The translations under genes were made by a program, and so were the position numbers. The notes under the pieces are model-generated. The model worked only from the letters and a program-made list of their open reading frames with translations, was not told the origin of the DNA and did not search any database. A stretch of DNA of 64,000 bases. It comes from Novisyntrophococcus fermenticellae. GTDB taxonomy: Bacteria; Bacillota; Clostridia; Lachnospirales; Lachnospiraceae. The stretch spans positions 3,348,001-3,412,000 of the forward strand of contig NZ_CP076458.1 of the NCBI RefSeq assembly GCF_018866245.1, given 5' to 3'. This document shows positions 3,914 through 29,607 of this stretch, piece by piece; the stretch's first letter is position 1, and each line of letters opens with the position of its first letter.

Positions 3914-4140
3914 AAGAAAAGGCACCCGTCCCGTAAAAGGACGAATGCCATAAATCATTCGCAGCCACCTGTTACATACAATCATATGCATCCCTTCTAA
4001 CGCCGGGACTGCGTCCTCACTTAATTATGGAATATGTCCACGTTCGGCTTGGCAACTCGGAAGTGATCTTCTGCTGTTACTACTGATACCGGACTCACAC
4101 CCTCTCCGGTTCGCTGGAATGTTTGTAGCAGCCTACTGTC
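3914..4140 (-). promoter_or_regulatory. T-box leader of ileS, isoleucine type
   Basis: Read on the minus strand, the leader contains a Stem I region, a probable specifier ATC at 4067-4065 within GAAGATCACTTCC, and the T-box sequence AGGTGGCTGCGAA near 3956-3968. A terminator hairpin follows at 3921-3950 with a T-run at 3914-3920. The competing antiterminator uses the T-box sequence. Uncharged tRNA-Ile would allow read-through into ileS. The specifier matches the downstream gene, which supports the call. Confidence 0.88.
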
Positions 4141-4203
4141 TTCGTCATAGTTTTTCTGTAAATCTGTAGATATCGTTAATTATGTAGTATGTAAAAGAAA
4201 ATG

Positions 4204-22738: not shown

Positions 22739-22764
22739 ATACTTCATCTTCACCTATCTGTAAA

Positions 22765-22950
22765 ACATAGCGCAACTTAGTTTTTCCACGATGGCCGCGT
22801 AAACTAAGACAGTCCATAAGCTGTTAGCTTATGTCCCAACCGGATGACAAAAGAGATATCCTCCGATTTCGGCGATGTTTCCTAGTTCTGCTTCTACATG
22901 TCTCTTCACTCCACAGAGTTAATAAACCTCGCAACCTCTACCTCACACAC
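22765..22950 (-). promoter_or_regulatory. Lysine riboswitch (L box)
   Basis: The minus strand carries the conserved L-box blocks in order: GGTAGAGGTTGCGA, a GAAG segment, CGCCGAAATCGG, GGTTGGGACA, then TGGACTGTC, with a P5-type hairpin CTTAGTTT/AAACTAAG and a closing GCGCTATG. This is the aptamer of lysine-responsive leaders in Firmicutes. The order of blocks is seen; the identity of the ligand follows from the family. Confidence 0.9.
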
Positions 22951-24930: not shown

Positions 24931-25824
24931 TTAGAAGGAGGGAACTACAGCTCCCTCATACTTATCTTCCATGAACTTCTTCACGGTATCACTGGTCAGA
25001 GCTTCAACGAGCGCTTTTGTCTTCTCGCTGTTCTCTTCTCCCGAGCGTACTGCTACGATATTCGCATATGTCGTCGCTGCAATAGAGTCTGCGTCTTCTG
25101 TAGCCAGAGCGTCGGATACCTTAAATCCAGCCTCAATCGCATAGTTTCCATTAATGACCGCTACATCCACATCTGGCAGTGATCGGGGAAGCTGCGCAGC
25201 CTCAACTTCGATAATTTCAAAGTTCTTGTCGTTCTTTACAATGTCATTCTTCGTTGCATCCATCTCTACACCATCCTTCAGACCGATCAGTCCTTTGTCC
25301 GCCAGTAAGAGAAGGGCTCTTGCTTCATTGGAAACATCGTTTGGAACTGCAATTTTGGCTCCATCCTTAAGCTCTTCCAGAGAAGAGGTCTTTCCTGCAT
25401 AGATGCCAAATGGCTCATAGTGAATGGCAGCCGCACTTACCAGACTGGTTTTATTTTCCTCGTTAAATTGATCCAAATATGGTTTGTGCTGGAAGTAATT
25501 TGCATCCAGGTCTCCGGAATCAAGCGCAAGATTCGGCTGTACATAGTCCGTATACTCTTTCACTATCAGATTATATCCTTTTTCCTTTAACAAATCCTTT
25601 ACGGCTTCCAGAACCTCCGCATGAGGTGAGGGAGTAGCTCCCACAATAATATCCTCCAAATCTGCGGAATCTTCCCCGGATTTAGATTGTTCAGCCGTAG
25701 AATCCGCTTTTGATTCTGCTGCAGGTTCCGATCCGTTTATGGTGGAATCTGCCTTGGATCCGCATGCTGTCAGCGCACCTGCTGCTAAAACTGCTGCTGT
25801 GAGTAAATACAGAGATTTCTTCAT
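24931..25824 (-). CDS. metQ: Methionine ABC transporter substrate-binding lipoprotein
   Basis: The signal peptide MKKSLYLLTAAVLAAGALTAC ends in a lipobox (LTAC), so the mature protein is lipid-anchored. A low-complexity Ser/Glu/Asp linker follows, then the NlpA/MetQ fold with VGATPSPHAEVLE and DLDANYFQHKPYLDQFN, and PNDVSNEARALLLL. The start is ATG 25824 behind GAGGAGG; a longer frame upstream reads into the IS110 end. The gene belongs with metN and metI but is now separated from them by the IS element, so its expression may be altered. Confidence 0.93.
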   Translation of the reverse strand: MKKSLYLLTAAVLAAGALTACGSKADSTINGSEPAAESKADSTAEQSKSGEDSADLEDIIVGATPSPHAEVLEAVKDLLKEKGYNLIVKEYTDYVQPNLALDSGDLDANYFQHKPYLDQFNEENKTSLVSAAAIHYEPFGIYAGKTSSLEELKDGAKIAVPNDVSNEARALLLLADKGLIGLKDGVEMDATKNDIVKNDKNFEIIEVEAAQLPRSLPDVDVAVINGNYAIEAGFKVSDALATEDADSIAATTYANIVAVRSGEENSEKTKALVEALTSDTVKKFMEDKYEGAVVPSF

Positions 25825-25889
25825 AATTTTTCCTCCTCGTATAATATATTTTAGATACTTAATAGTACCTTGATAACTAAATAAATTTT

Positions 25890-26158
25890 GTTCAATCGGC
25901 TTAGTTAAGCCCATGATATAATTGTCTTAGTGTCAATCAGGTAATAGTTCTTTTTTCTCCTGTTGAACCAGTAATGGTTGCTTCATAATAAGTCTGTTCC
26001 CCTGACATGGAAGTTAGCTTCAAACCGGCTGGCTGTTTGCTTAAGTACATGGACGACCATCTGGCAGTGTGGTTTCGCATCTGTCCATCTTAAGCTGGAT
26101 TCTTATATGCGAGGGTGTCGATGCTCCATGATCATGGGTTTTACCAAGCCGATTGAAC
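25890..26158 (+). ncRNA. Candidate bridge RNA region of the IS110 element
   Basis: IS110 elements make a bridge RNA from a non-coding end to pair donor and target DNA (family knowledge). Here the left end is bounded by a 28-nt inverted repeat, 25890-25917 against 26131-26158, with 25 of 28 positions pairing. Inside are further stems: AACCA-gtaa-TGGTT near 25966-25980, and GCTTAAG-tac-ATGGAC pairing with GTCCAT-CTTAAGC (about 26038-26094) around a large loop. Structure is seen; transcription and guide loops are inferred. Confidence 0.55.
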
Positions 26159-26190: not shown

Positions 26191-27417
26191 ATGAACCCAC
26201 TTTACGTCGGAATTGATGTAAGCAGCAAATCCAATGTCGTTTATTTTATGCTGCCTGATGGTAACAAACATAGTAACTTCTCAGTTGCTAACTCACAGGA
26301 TGGTTCTGTTCAGTTGGTAAAAAGAATCTGTTCTGCTTTAAATTCTCAGTCCCTTGACACCGTCCTCATAGGTCTCGAATCAACATCTGTCTATGGTGAC
26401 AATCTCGTGTATTTCTTAAGGGAAGATGCATCTCTTGCATCCTTTAACAGAAAGATTCATGTCCTCAACCCCAAGCAGGTTAAAAAGTTTAAGGATGCTT
26501 ATAATGACCTGCCAAAGAATGATTATGTGGACTCTTTTGTCATTGCTGACTGCCTGCGTTTTGGAAGAATCAACAAAGAGGTATACATAGGAGATTATCA
26601 CTACAAAGCTCTCCAAAACCTCACACGCGCACGATACTTTACCGTCTGCAACCTCATCAAAGAAAAGCAACGGTTTATGAATGTGCTGTTTAAGAAGTAT
26701 TCAACCATGACACAGGAGAAGGTATTTTCAGATACCTTCAGTACGACCGCCCTTGCTGTCTACGATGAATTTGAATCCGCAGAAGCACTGGCATATATGG
26801 ACTTACATGAACTGACCGCTTTTATCATGGAAAAAGGAAAGAACCGCTTTCCAGATCCCGATGCGGTAGCCAAAGCCATTCAGAAAGCTGCCCGGAGTTC
26901 CTACCGTTTACCCAAGACGGTAAATGACTCTGTAAATCAGGTACTTTCCATATCCATAACCTCCATAAAGGCATTGGAAGCGCAAATCAAAGAGTTCGAT
27001 AAAGCAATCTCTGCTCAAATGGAACTCCTTCAAAACGTATTGATATCTATACCTGGAATCGGTCCCGTTTATTCTGCCGGTATCATGGCAGAGATTGGAG
27101 ATATCAACCGTTTTGAAAATCAGGCGCAGCTTGCGAAATATGCAGGTCTTGCCTGGACTCAGCACCAGTCTGGTGATTTTGAAGCACAAAACACAAGGCT
27201 CATCAGGTCTGGTAACCGATTTTTAAAGTATTATCTGTGTGAAGCTGCATTCTCTCTTGTAAGATGCGACAAGGAGTACAAAGCTTTTTATCACCAAAAG
27301 TACAAAGAGGTGAACAGATATCAACACAAACGTGCACTCGCATTAACTGCCCGTAAATTTGTGCGGTTAGTCTTTACGCTACTGAAAGACAACCGCCTAT
27401 ATCGCCCAGCAGAATAG
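26191..27417 (+). CDS. IS110-family transposase/recombinase
   Basis: 408 residues. The N-terminal RuvC-like DEDD domain starts YVGIDVSSKSN (first Asp about residue 9) and has a conserved LIGLEST. The C-terminal Tnp20/IS116 domain has SIPGIGPVYSAGIMAEIGD (about 287-305) and YAGLAWTQHQSGDF, which includes the Ser taken as the recombinase nucleophile in this family, then RLIRSGNRFLKYYL. The protein appears intact, so the element could be active. A ribosome site GAAGGTG precedes the ATG. Confidence 0.92.
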   Translation: MNPLYVGIDVSSKSNVVYFMLPDGNKHSNFSVANSQDGSVQLVKRICSALNSQSLDTVLIGLESTSVYGDNLVYFLREDASLASFNRKIHVLNPKQVKKFKDAYNDLPKNDYVDSFVIADCLRFGRINKEVYIGDYHYKALQNLTRARYFTVCNLIKEKQRFMNVLFKKYSTMTQEKVFSDTFSTTALAVYDEFESAEALAYMDLHELTAFIMEKGKNRFPDPDAVAKAIQKAARSSYRLPKTVNDSVNQVLSISITSIKALEAQIKEFDKAISAQMELLQNVLISIPGIGPVYSAGIMAEIGDINRFENQAQLAKYAGLAWTQHQSGDFEAQNTRLIRSGNRFLKYYLCEAAFSLVRCDKEYKAFYHQKYKEVNRYQHKRALALTARKFVRLVFTLLKDNRLYRPAE

Positions 27418-27624: not shown

Positions 27625-28290
27625 CTACTTGATTCGTTTGTCACTGCTCCTGGATATTTTCATTCCCACTTCTTGTATAATCTGAACAATAATAACCAGA
27701 ATAATCACCGTAATAAGCATCATTTCCGTCTGATACCGGTAATATCCATATCGGATAGCAATATCCCCAAGTCCGCCTCCGCCTACAGCGCCTGTCATGG
27801 CAGAATAAGCTAAAATTGTAGTCACGGACAGCACCGCTCCCGTAATCAGGGATGGTTTTGCCTCGGGAAGAAGGACTTTCCATATAATCTGAAAGGTAGA
27901 AGCCCCCATGGACTTTGCTGCTTCAATCACACCGCTGTCCACCTCCCGGAAGGAGGATTCCACAACTCTGGCCACGTAGGGCGCAGAAGCTAAAGTCAGG
28001 GGCGGGATTACACCCTTTACCCCTAAAGAGGTGCCAATCAATACCCTCGTTACCGGAATCATCATTACTATAAAGATAATAAACGGTATAGAACGAATCA
28101 GATTTACAATCATTCCTAAAGGCTTATGAATCCATGGAACAGGATAAATACCGTCTTTATCCATAACTGTAAGGATAATGCCGAGGGGCAATCCAATCAG
28201 ATAAGCCAGAAAAGAAGAGATAGATATCATCTTCAAGGAGTCTAGCGTTCCTACCAGAAGCATCTGTACTGTTTCGTTATCAAAGGTCAT
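27625..28290 (-). CDS. metI: Methionine ABC transporter permease
   Basis: 221 residues with about five membrane helices. The EAA loop is SGVIEAAKSMGASTFQIIWKVLLPEAKPSLI in two parts (about residues 123-153), typical of MetI. It overlaps metN by 11 bp. The partner binding protein MetQ lies beyond the inserted IS110 element. Confidence 0.93.
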   Translation of the reverse strand: MTFDNETVQMLLVGTLDSLKMISISSFLAYLIGLPLGIILTVMDKDGIYPVPWIHKPLGMIVNLIRSIPFIIFIVMMIPVTRVLIGTSLGVKGVIPPLTLASAPYVARVVESSFREVDSGVIEAAKSMGASTFQIIWKVLLPEAKPSLITGAVLSVTTILAYSAMTGAVGGGGLGDIAIRYGYYRYQTEMMLITVIILVIIVQIIQEVGMKISRSSDKRIK

Positions 28291-29302
28291 AACTTTTCAC
28301 CTCCTCATATGGTATTTCGGATGTATGAAGGTAGCTCAGTACCTTGCCTTGATCCCCTTCATTTTCAGGAAGCTGGATAACCATCTGTCCCATTGCGGTT
28401 CCGTTAATGTCCCTTGTCTCCGCATGTATAATGTTAACCGGAACCTTACATGTTAAAATAAGGTTGGCCAAAACAGGTTCAAAAGAAGAACGTCCGTCAA
28501 AAGAGATTCTAATCTGTCTGGAATTCCTGAACCGGATAACCTGACCGGCCGCATCTCCAAGGATAAGCTGCCTTCCAATTTTGGATTTCGGATTGGAAAA
28601 TATCTGAGCCACAGAACCTTCTTCTGCAATATGGCTCTGGTCAATAATAGCAACCTTGTCGCAAATAGCTTCTATTACAGCCATCTCATGGGTAATAACT
28701 ACCACTGTAACCCCCATGGTTTTGTTAATTTGTCTCAGCAGATCCAGAATAGACTTTGTGGTGTTAGGATCCAGAGCACTGGTGGCCTCATCGCAGAGGA
28801 GAATCTTGGGATTCGTCGCCAATGCCCTTGCAATGGCTACTCTCTGCTTTTGTCCCCCCGACAACTGAGCCGGATAAGCATTTGCCCGATCTTGAAGCCC
28901 TACGATCTCCAGAAGTTCCATCGCTCGCTTCTGAGCATCCTTCTTGGGCTTTTTGGCAATTTCCAAGGGAAAGCAGACGTTCTGAAGTACATTTCTCTGC
29001 TCTAGCAGATTAAACTGCTGGAAAATCATGCCCATGGACTGTCTCGCCAGCCTCTGCTCCTTCGGTTTCATATTGGATAGGCTTTTATTTTCAAAAAACA
29101 CGTCTCCCGCTGTAGGTAACTCCAGGTAGTTAATGCATCGAACCAGCGTACTCTTTCCCGCTCCGCTAAGACCGATAATTCCATATATTTCTCCTCTCCC
29201 AATGGACAGGTTGATATCATCCAGTGCCTTAATGGGACCATTCGAAGTATCAAAATATTTCCCAAGCCCGACCAGGCGTATAATCGGTTCTGATGACTGC
29301 AT
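28280..29302 (-). CDS. metN: Methionine ABC transporter ATP-binding protein
   Basis: 340 residues. Walker A GLSGAGKSTLV (about 42-52), Q-loop QQFNLLEQ, signature [15 protein letters not shown] and Walker B LLCDEATSALDP. The C-terminal 80 residues (from about 258, FDGRSSFEPVLANL) match the NIL domain, which binds methionine and inhibits transport in MetN. A ribosome site GAAAGGAG precedes the ATG. It is the first main gene of the operon and sits behind a Met-rich leader peptide and a terminator. Confidence 0.95.
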   Translation of the reverse strand: MQSSEPIIRLVGLGKYFDTSNGPIKALDDINLSIGRGEIYGIIGLSGAGKSTLVRCINYLELPTAGDVFFENKSLSNMKPKEQRLARQSMGMIFQQFNLLEQRNVLQNVCFPLEIAKKPKKDAQKRAMELLEIVGLQDRANAYPAQLSGGQKQRVAIARALATNPKILLCDEATSALDPNTTKSILDLLRQINKTMGVTVVVITHEMAVIEAICDKVAIIDQSHIAEEGSVAQIFSNPKSKIGRQLILGDAAGQVIRFRNSRQIRISFDGRSSFEPVLANLILTCKVPVNIIHAETRDINGTAMGQMVIQLPENEGDQGKVLSYLHTSEIPYEEVKSYDL

Positions 29303-29324: not shown

Positions 29325-29363
29325 GTAAAACAAAAAGCCACAAGTCCTGCACAGACCTGTGAC
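29325..29363 (-). terminator. Putative attenuator terminator before metN
   Basis: GTCACAGGTC (29363-29354) pairs along its whole length, with two G-T pairs, with GGACTTGTGGC (29347-29337), followed by TTTTTGTTTT. It ends 22 bp before metN, so transcription would stop before the operon unless the hairpin is avoided. Confidence 0.8.
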
Positions 29364-29426
29364 CTGATAATCCCGCGTTTTTCGCCGCTTCCAATTCCAA
29401 GCACTATCCATACAAATGAAAATCCA

Positions 29427-29522
29427 TCATCGTCTTTTTGCACACTCTGACATACAGCACATCATCATACACATGCTGTTCATCGGGATCATATTCATCT
29501 GCATAGCTTTAAACTGGTTCAT
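29427..29522 (-). CDS. Methionine/cysteine-rich leader peptide of the metNI operon
   Basis: A 31-codon reading frame with AAGGAG eight bases before its ATG. It starts MNQFKAMQMNM and holds MNSMCMMMCCMSEC near the end, then AKRR and a stop. Ten residues are Met (1, 7, 9, 11, 14, 17, 19, 20, 21, 24) and four are Cys (18, 22, 23, 27). The gene downstream imports methionine and a terminator lies between. This is the pattern of a translation-coupled attenuator, where ribosome stalling at Met codons would disturb the terminator. I saw no SAM riboswitch or T-box here. Function is inferred; composition is seen. Confidence 0.8.
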   Translation of the reverse strand: MNQFKAMQMNMIPMNSMCMMMCCMSECAKRR

Positions 29523-29578
29523 GGCGGCAGCTCCTTTCATATACTCTATGGGTAAACTAGGGATTCTTTATGAGCCGT

Positions 29579-29607
29579 ATTTTACCCCTTCTTCTGACAT
29601 TTGTCAA
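29579..29607 (-). promoter_or_regulatory. Promoter of the metNI leader
   Basis: Perfect TTGACA (29607-29602), 17-nt spacer, TAAAAT (29584-29579). Transcription should start near 29572, about 50 nt before the leader peptide ATG. A GGGTAAA/TTTACCC inverted repeat lies over the start region. Confidence 0.85.

Follow-up and report, generated by a model that had tools for sequence, protein, structure and literature searches.

The stretch of DNA analyzed here (the window, 64,000 nucleotides in full) carries on its minus strand the genes metN, metI and metQ of an ABC importer, headed by a leader region that runs from a promoter at 29607 to 29303, where metN follows (Table 1). Since MetN, MetI and MetQ all score below NCBIfam cut-offs, methionine was assigned as the probable substrate from the best matches and from Met T-boxes. 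The transposase gene between metI and metQ is on the opposite strand and may thus have cut metQ off from transcription by the leader promoter. A loose lipoprotein pattern, which missed some evident lipoproteins, was found 3' of metI, still inside the locus, at 28 of the 32 loci of relatives.

Table 1. Features of the leader region and importer operon (positions in the window)
Feature	Position	Strand	Remarks
Sigma-70-type promoter TTGACA-17-TAAAAT	29579..29607	-	11/12 matches; like promoter at equivalent place in relatives
Shine-Dalgarno AAGGAG of leader frame	29531..29536	-	8 nt 5' of ATG 29522
Leader peptide frame MNQFKAMQMNMIPMNSMCMMMCCMSECAKRR	29427..29522	-	31 codons + TGA; ATG 29522, TGA 29429-29427
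Segment 1 CTATGCAGATGAA	29494..29506	-	Within codons 6-10 (A-M-Q-M-N); partner, segment 2
Segment 2 TTCATTTGTATGGATAGTGCTT	29399..29420	-	Frame-independent kept element, 6 nt past stop codon; partner, segment 1 or segment 3
Segment 3 AGGTCACAGGTCTGTGCA	29348..29365	-	Terminator 5' arm + loop; partner, segment 2 (antiterminator) or, via arm, segment 4 (terminator)
Segment 4	29335..29347	-	3' arm of intrinsic terminator, then TTTGTTTT
Intrinsic terminator hairpin	29335..29365	-	13 pairs incl. G-U; T-rich tail; 61 nt 3' of leader stop
metN, ABC transporter ATPase, C-terminal NIL domain	28280..29302	-	Best NCBIfam match MetN, below curated cut-off
metI, permease, BPD_transp_1	27625..28290	-	Just below NCBIfam cut-off
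IS110-type transposase gene	26191..27417	+	Between metI and metQ
metQ, NlpA-type lipoprotein, Lipoprotein_9	24931..25914	-	Below NCBIfam cut-offs

The original prediction had described a promoter, a 31-codon frame with its own AAGGAG, a 10-bp hairpin and then metN. These features were all recovered at the locus, save that the hairpin comprises 13 pairs with G-U pairs counted rather than 10. The promoter was the sole promoter-like match in 1.1 kb, a match that is weak by itself because shuffled regions yield 2.4 such matches each. As predicted, the frame holds 10 Met codons (start counted) and 4 Cys codons, including Met-Met-Met and Cys-Cys; the Cys codons are codons 18, 22, 23 and 27, all past segment 1. 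An alternative in-frame ATG at 29540 would give a frame of 37 codons, and the shorter frame is favored by the position of its Shine-Dalgarno sequence. Among the 547 ATG-started frames of 15 to 60 codons in the window, the leader was the only one with at least 10 Met codons, the runner-up having 6. The parts of an attenuator were thus found together: a leader frame with start, Shine-Dalgarno sequence and stop, enrichment of Met codons, and an intrinsic terminator before the gene.

A profile of five leaders was searched against 397 genomes of the family, with E <0.005 taken as a strong match. This search gave 14 strong matches, 3 of them the profile's own rows, and these stood ahead of metN, or ahead of metI where the frame listing began past base 1000 (metI was listed downstream of the leader in L036, and the end of metN followed by metI in L043). 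Leader matches in L175, L176, L177 and L191 were also upstream of metN, and a 15-row profile added three genomes (G140, G238 and G170), all with the match ahead of metN. A further profile match (G346:C68, E <0.001) lies 75 nt from a contig end, with the downstream gene beyond the contig. The same genome has two leader-like frames, each near a contig end (contigs C10, L043, and C68, L202); one could be a second copy, or the pair an artefact of assembly. Three kinds of match were rejected: a short one in L178 (G368, E <0.001), which lies within an unrelated-looking 235-codon frame with no metN and is chance-like; one in L195 (E 5e-4), which sits within a 698-codon frame; and weak matches (E about 0.005 or more), of which those inspected (L192, L193, L196 and L199) lay in or before other genes. 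A search of 391 genomes of the class gave two strong matches, both within the family, and a profile of the Herbinix-type leader gave one strong match in the 397 family genomes.

The leader was also sought from the side of metN, by scanning up to 700 nt upstream of metN for Met-rich frames at the best 80 of at least 574 confirmed metN loci, these 80 being from named genomes. A Met-rich leader frame was present at 64 of these best 80 loci, compared with 4 of 167 control windows by an equal scan, in agreement with the proposal that an alignment of related metN leaders would retain the frame and its Met codons. In 57 of 60 leaders, an in-frame start is preceded by a loosely defined Shine-Dalgarno-like motif. 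A terminator-like hairpin of -9 kcal/mol or lower was found 3' of the stop in 64 of 64 leader loci and in 21 of 192 dinucleotide-shuffled regions; at -14 kcal/mol or lower, the counts were 51 of 64 and 4 of 192. Five of the 64 hairpin assignments (L092, L119, L120, L123 and L124) were doubtful and were left out of later counts. The gap from stop to hairpin had a median of 64 nt (60 leaders). The 16 loci that lacked a scored leader included two cut by a contig end (L145 and L157) and three with a T-box (L126, L130 and L139), and 10 of the 78 assessable metN loci had neither a leader nor an Rfam regulatory element (L106, L144, L147, L150, L153, L156 and L158-L161). Upstream of metN in L127, promoter and terminator of the same sequence type are kept and the leader frame is absent, as if deleted. 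Carriers of the leader include Lacrimispora, Enterocloster, Hungatella and Herbinix species. In two genomes labelled as other families (L083, Paenibacillaceae, and L135, Anaerolineaceae), metN and leader group with Lachnospiraceae, and these genomes are likely misnamed or mixed metagenome bins. In the Herbinix type, metN is preceded by tRNA genes, which were read as Thr and Pro and set aside as unrelated.

Comparison of codons among related leaders revealed a constraint on Met codons. Nonsynonymous change per codon comparison was 0.156 at Met, 0.281 at Cys and 0.403 at other codons (125 related pairs, which are non-independent; starts counted). The rate at Met codons was therefore lower by a factor of 2.6 than that at codons other than Met and Cys, as expected from the proposal that Met codons are kept while others drift. 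At Cys sites, synonymous change between UGU and UGC amounted to 19.0% while the residue stayed Cys. Each of the 59 counted loci has 5-14 Met and 1-7 Cys codons. Met makes up 24% of leader residues against 2.3% in control frames, a comparison of related frames picked by Met content. Cys, which was not a selection criterion, makes up 9.6% against 3.3%, about threefold; at least one Cys was present in 59 of 59 leaders, and at least two in 58 of 59, compared with 133 of 546 control frames. In the 36-row alignment of the main clade, one Met-Cys step is near-invariant (Met 35/36, Cys 36/36), and Met, Cys, Asn and Gly keep their spacing, with Gly in 29 of 36 rows. ATG triplets within leader frames were distributed over the three frames as 503/25/26, a count that is supportive but not independent, the frames having been picked by Met content. 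Gap runs inside the frame were multiples of three in 42 of 45 cases, many of which are one shared event. Frame conservation of this kind suggests that the leader frame is translated.

Repressors are among the controls of methionine genes in Firmicutes. SAM riboswitches and Met T-boxes control such genes as well, as covered in part of one source (PMC3771891), and the original prediction had seen neither in this leader. In the window, Rfam at gathering scores found only a lysine riboswitch (22760-22948, minus strand) and a tRNA, with no SAM riboswitch or T-box; in the leader, Rfam matches with E up to 5 were two chance-level ones, neither of them to SAM or T-box elements. A T-box below the Rfam cut-off was seen at 3934-4157 of the window (minus strand); by eye, the gene that follows it was read as isoleucyl-tRNA synthetase-like. 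Scanning of 32 of the 64 leader loci with Rfam found tRNA genes only and no SAM or T-box fold, so that the absence of such folds extends from the window to these other leader loci. Neither of the outcomes that the original prediction had named as refuting it, related leaders lacking the frame or its Met codons and a conserved SAM-binding or T-box fold across the region, was thus obtained. Thirteen T-boxes were found in this genome, none ahead of a gene read as a Met gene, and its single SAM riboswitch found stands before a metK-like gene. In other families of the order, a SAM riboswitch preceded metN at 4 of 20 loci scanned (L016, L019, L020 and L024). Like the leader described here, the SAM (S-box) riboswitch controls metN through the 5' leader, but it senses SAM directly, and it is absent here.

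The same Rfam search found a T-box upstream of metN in L126, L130 and L139, and in L013 of another family. To place the specifier, seven T-boxes of this genome served as a calibration set, with their downstream proteins read by eye: those before ValRS, ProRS, LeuRS, leuA, cysE-cysS, PheS and a transporter lipoprotein read GUA, CC-type, CUG, CUG, UGC, UUC and UGG, respectively. The lipoprotein behind the UGG T-box is presumably of the type linked to Trp. In all four metN T-boxes the specifier column reads AUG. In the MetN tree, the three T-box rows of the family form one group (94/87) nested in leader-bearing groups, with support of 100/97 for their joining six Hungatella-type sisters and 95/83 above. 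Because the T-box in this nested clade reads AUG, the same metN operon answers there to tRNA-Met, and because it takes the place of the leader in these relatives, sensing of Met is well supported by comparison. The two devices share the gene or pathway and the kind of signal, uncharged tRNA-Met; the T-box binds the tRNA directly, whereas the inner codons of the leader frame would read elongator tRNA-Met only. The T-box in the met leader of Staphylococcus aureus prefers initiator tRNA, according to the part of the source consulted (PMC3771891).

Four segments of the leader RNA can enter alternative pairings. In the 1:2 pairing, CUAUGCAGAUGAA joins UUCAUUUGUAUGG via the A-M-Q-M-N codons. The element UUUGUAUGGAUUGUGAUU, directly 3' of the stop, is conserved in any reading frame, and in L129 and L133 the leader frame itself contains it; one comparison bearing on segment 2 was made without G003, which has no anchor, and without leaders of other types. 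The 2:3 pairing can be illustrated by L089, in which the UUUGUAUGGAUUGUGAUU element can pair with the terminator 5' arm and loop GGUCGCAA-G-UCUGUGCA, with one bulged G. Leaders of the Herbinix type, a second clade (L135, L140-L143, L146 and L155), have another sequence with an equal layout, in which segment 1 is AUGAGAACAUC (MRTS), segment 2 is GAAUGUGGUGUUUUCAU and segment 3 is GAAAACC with the terminator arm. Compared against related leaders, the predicted antiterminator (2:3) is exclusive with the terminator (3:4), and 1:2, a predicted anti-antiterminator, with 2:3, and these relations, which the original prediction had not described, are kept. A pairing of 5' UTR AAUCCC with GGGAUU, present in the minimum-energy fold of the window, was dropped, as the CCC is absent in G003 and G005.

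The pairings were quantified in an alignment of 30 rows from named genomes (A6) from which six Hungatella-type rows (L099, L112, L113, L114, L116 and L117), in which segment 2 pairs less well, were left out. The proportion of paired cells was 85.6% for 1:2, 84.1% for 2:3 and 93.4% for 3:4, compared with 33.0-44.3%, 28.2-39.7% and 32.8-50.1% in slid versions; the pairing model was taken from one row, which gives it an advantage over slid versions, and the rows are related to each other. Shuffling of letters within columns kept 84.3, 83.2 and 87.5% paired, barely lowering 1:2 and 2:3, and most of the pairing in these two is thus due to conserved columns. Covariation scores of 0.174, 0.191 and 0.386 for 1:2, 2:3 and 3:4 were above those of all slid versions and were matched by 1, 3 and 0 of 500 shuffles, respectively. 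Double-change cells numbered 5, 5 and 30 against shuffled means of 2.0, 1.9 and 11.3, and reached 10, 7 and 14 in slid versions. A separate count of 39 rows, with the six Hungatella-type rows in and L148 and rows more than 95% alike out, gave 79.2, 83.1 and 93.7% paired; double-change cells numbered 6, 14 and 43, where permutation gave means of 2.2, 4.5 and 11.4 and slid versions gave up to 11, 14 and 14. In both counts, the double-change cells of 1:2 and 2:3 did not surpass the best slid versions. Thus, covariation is strong for 3:4 only, and 1:2 and 2:3 are held in register with little compensatory change. Little double change is expected in these two pairings, since one segment is shared between two partners and segment 1 encodes part of the peptide as well.

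The leader was folded with and without a ribosome, as the original prediction had proposed. With segment 4 not yet transcribed, the window leader without a ribosome formed 1:2, with 0 nt of segment 3 paired to segment 2, and with a ribosome stalled at Met7 it paired 15 nt of segment 3 to segment 2. Stalls at Met24, Cys18 and Cys27 gave an equal 2:3 result when the downstream RNA alone was folded. Computed energies in the window were -23.2 kcal/mol for the downstream part with 2:3 and -17.3 kcal/mol for the terminator alone. When this was extended to 59 loci and the window (the five loci with a doubtful terminator left out), 2:3 formed in 41 of 60 leaders stalled at the first inner Met, compared with 26.1 expected with shuffled spacers, and in 11 of 60 without a ribosome; folds of stalled leaders had 0 nt of 2:3 in lineages such as L129, L137, L149, L151 and L152. 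Complete RNAs folded with the ribosome at the stop gave 3:4 in 56 of 60 leaders, including the window, and the 4 in which it failed are close rows of the Lacrimispora clade. Before transcription of segment 4, 2:3 formed in 32 of 60, the window among them, despite a ribosome at the stop, and blocking of segment 2 therefore hinges on distances and timing beyond folding.

Collectively, these data suggest that the leader is a trp-type ribosome-mediated transcription attenuator that senses the charging of elongator tRNA-Met, and perhaps of tRNA-Cys, a reading drawn from sequence comparison to which we assign a probability of roughly 0.85. It agrees with the attenuation sensing charged tRNA-Met that had been proposed for this leader, and is supported by the kept Met codons, the exclusive 1:2, 2:3 and 3:4 pairings and the AUG T-boxes of relatives. 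When Met-tRNA is plentiful, the ribosome would reach the stop, 6 nt before segment 2, and partly cover that segment, so that 3:4 would form and transcription would end. A shortage of Met-tRNA or Cys-tRNA would stall the ribosome in the frame, over or past segment 1; segment 2 could then join segment 3 ahead of the synthesis of segment 4, and transcription would continue into metN-metI. If the leader is not translated, 1:2 would form and leave 3:4 to terminate. Starvation for Met should also lower charged initiator tRNA, which in this model would favor 1:2 and termination; with nine inner Met codons to read, elongation may give out well ahead of initiation.

Two versions of this attenuator differ in the part given to Cys. 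In the first, which we hold tentatively and at rather less than even odds, the leader is a dual sensor: the importer would open when either tRNA-Met or tRNA-Cys is uncharged, despite the threat that Met starvation poses to the leader's own initiator tRNA, and one clade would have swapped the elongator-tRNA sensor for a T-box, changing the readable tRNA and keeping the signal. The threefold enrichment of Cys and the one invariant Cys codon argue that the Cys codons matter, and co-sensing of Cys is plausible on these grounds. As the Cys codons of the window lie past segment 1, a ribosome halted at one of them would no longer shield segment 1; folding of the downstream RNA predicts 2:3 in this case, and 1:2 may form around the ribosome. 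In the narrower version, which falls just short of an even chance, Met is the sole signal, and the Cys codons either follow from the RNA being rich in UG or serve the pairing. This would fit the greater share of Met (24% against 10% of leader residues), the AUG specifier in relatives, the location of all the window's Cys codons past segment 1, and the UGC-specifier T-box that the same genome has before cysE-cysS-like genes. However, Cys recurs across the leaders far beyond control frames although frames were not selected for it, one Cys is found in all 36 aligned main-clade leaders, and Cys codons swap UGU for UGC yet stay Cys.

Readings other than attenuation by codon-specific stalling were weighed against the same evidence. 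A TnaC-like nascent peptide, which would bind Met, Cys or SAM in free form within the ribosome tunnel (TnaC binds Trp) and set the hairpins by arrest, is improbable: the conserved spacing of Met, Cys, Asn and Gly would suit such a peptide, but the peptide differs strongly between clades while the Met/Cys content stays, and plentiful Met arresting at inner codons would be expected to open the importer rather than close it. The conserved Gln and Asn (MQMN), dropped as a peptide-sequence signal because segment 1 is the partner of segment 2, are explained by 1:2, whereas the conserved Gly is not. There is very little probability that the frame encodes a small functional protein, such as a metal-binding Met/Cys peptide, and that the terminator merely ends its transcript. 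The spacing of Met and Cys resembles that of soft-metal ligands, but the strong matches with a readable downstream gene stand before metN, three relatives have a T-box in the peptide's place, its other residues are poorly conserved, and its RNA pairs with conserved segments that lie beyond the frame. An undescribed riboswitch or protein-binding RNA with an incidental open frame is just as hard to credit: the leader RNA folds better than its shuffles (z -3.6), but it matches no Rfam family, AUG is concentrated in one frame (among frames picked by Met content), and the in-frame gap runs fall in multiples of three, many as one shared event. UG-rich RNA as a protein site was likewise not favored, AUG being in one frame.

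The trp-type attenuator proposed here resembles known systems in its layout. The Trp, His, Leu and Thr attenuators have a frame rich in cognate codons, exclusive pairings and an intrinsic terminator before the first gene. Leaders in Rfam include these four, as listed in the part of the source consulted (PMC3766115). The present leader differs in its Met and Cys codons, in control of an importer, in its occurrence in Lachnospiraceae and in the lack of an Rfam match here, and also in that segment 1 lies near the start of the frame and joins segment 2 in a long-range helix. Control by leader peptides in Firmicutes is likewise seen in S. aureus, which reportedly has a Leu-rich attenuator peptide, and in the His leader peptides that in Bacilli stand before hisS paralogues in place of T-boxes, as described in the portion of that report consulted (PMC2965389); amino acid, gene and sequence differ in each case. 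Cys codons in a leader frame are described for the cysS uORF motif of Rhodobacterales, uORFC-8-2 (PMC8632094), and for the cys leader peptides of Actinobacteria (PMC1262725), which belong to other genes and phyla and for which the parts of these sources consulted mention no Met run. The consulted part of the latter source reports no conserved RNA structure before methionine operons in Actinobacteria (PMC1262725). An fthC uORF of Streptococcus, uORFC-39-1, stands before a terminator with a proposed indirect methionine response; in the consulted part of its description, it is proposed to act via initiator tRNA and translation start, not via inner Met codons (PMC11109978). Among the matches listed in open-licence full-text literature, there was no Met leader-peptide attenuator.

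Thus, the proposed switch follows a known mechanism, with a new predicted specificity, for Met and perhaps Cys, and a new lineage, the Lachnospiraceae. A leader attenuator reading Met codons would add a new route of control, and a new amino acid to the classic mechanism. It also poses the puzzle of how a shortage of Met can be reported by a switch that needs Met to start its own leader, and the swap between leader and Met T-box in one clade is a natural experiment on the replacement of RNA regulators.
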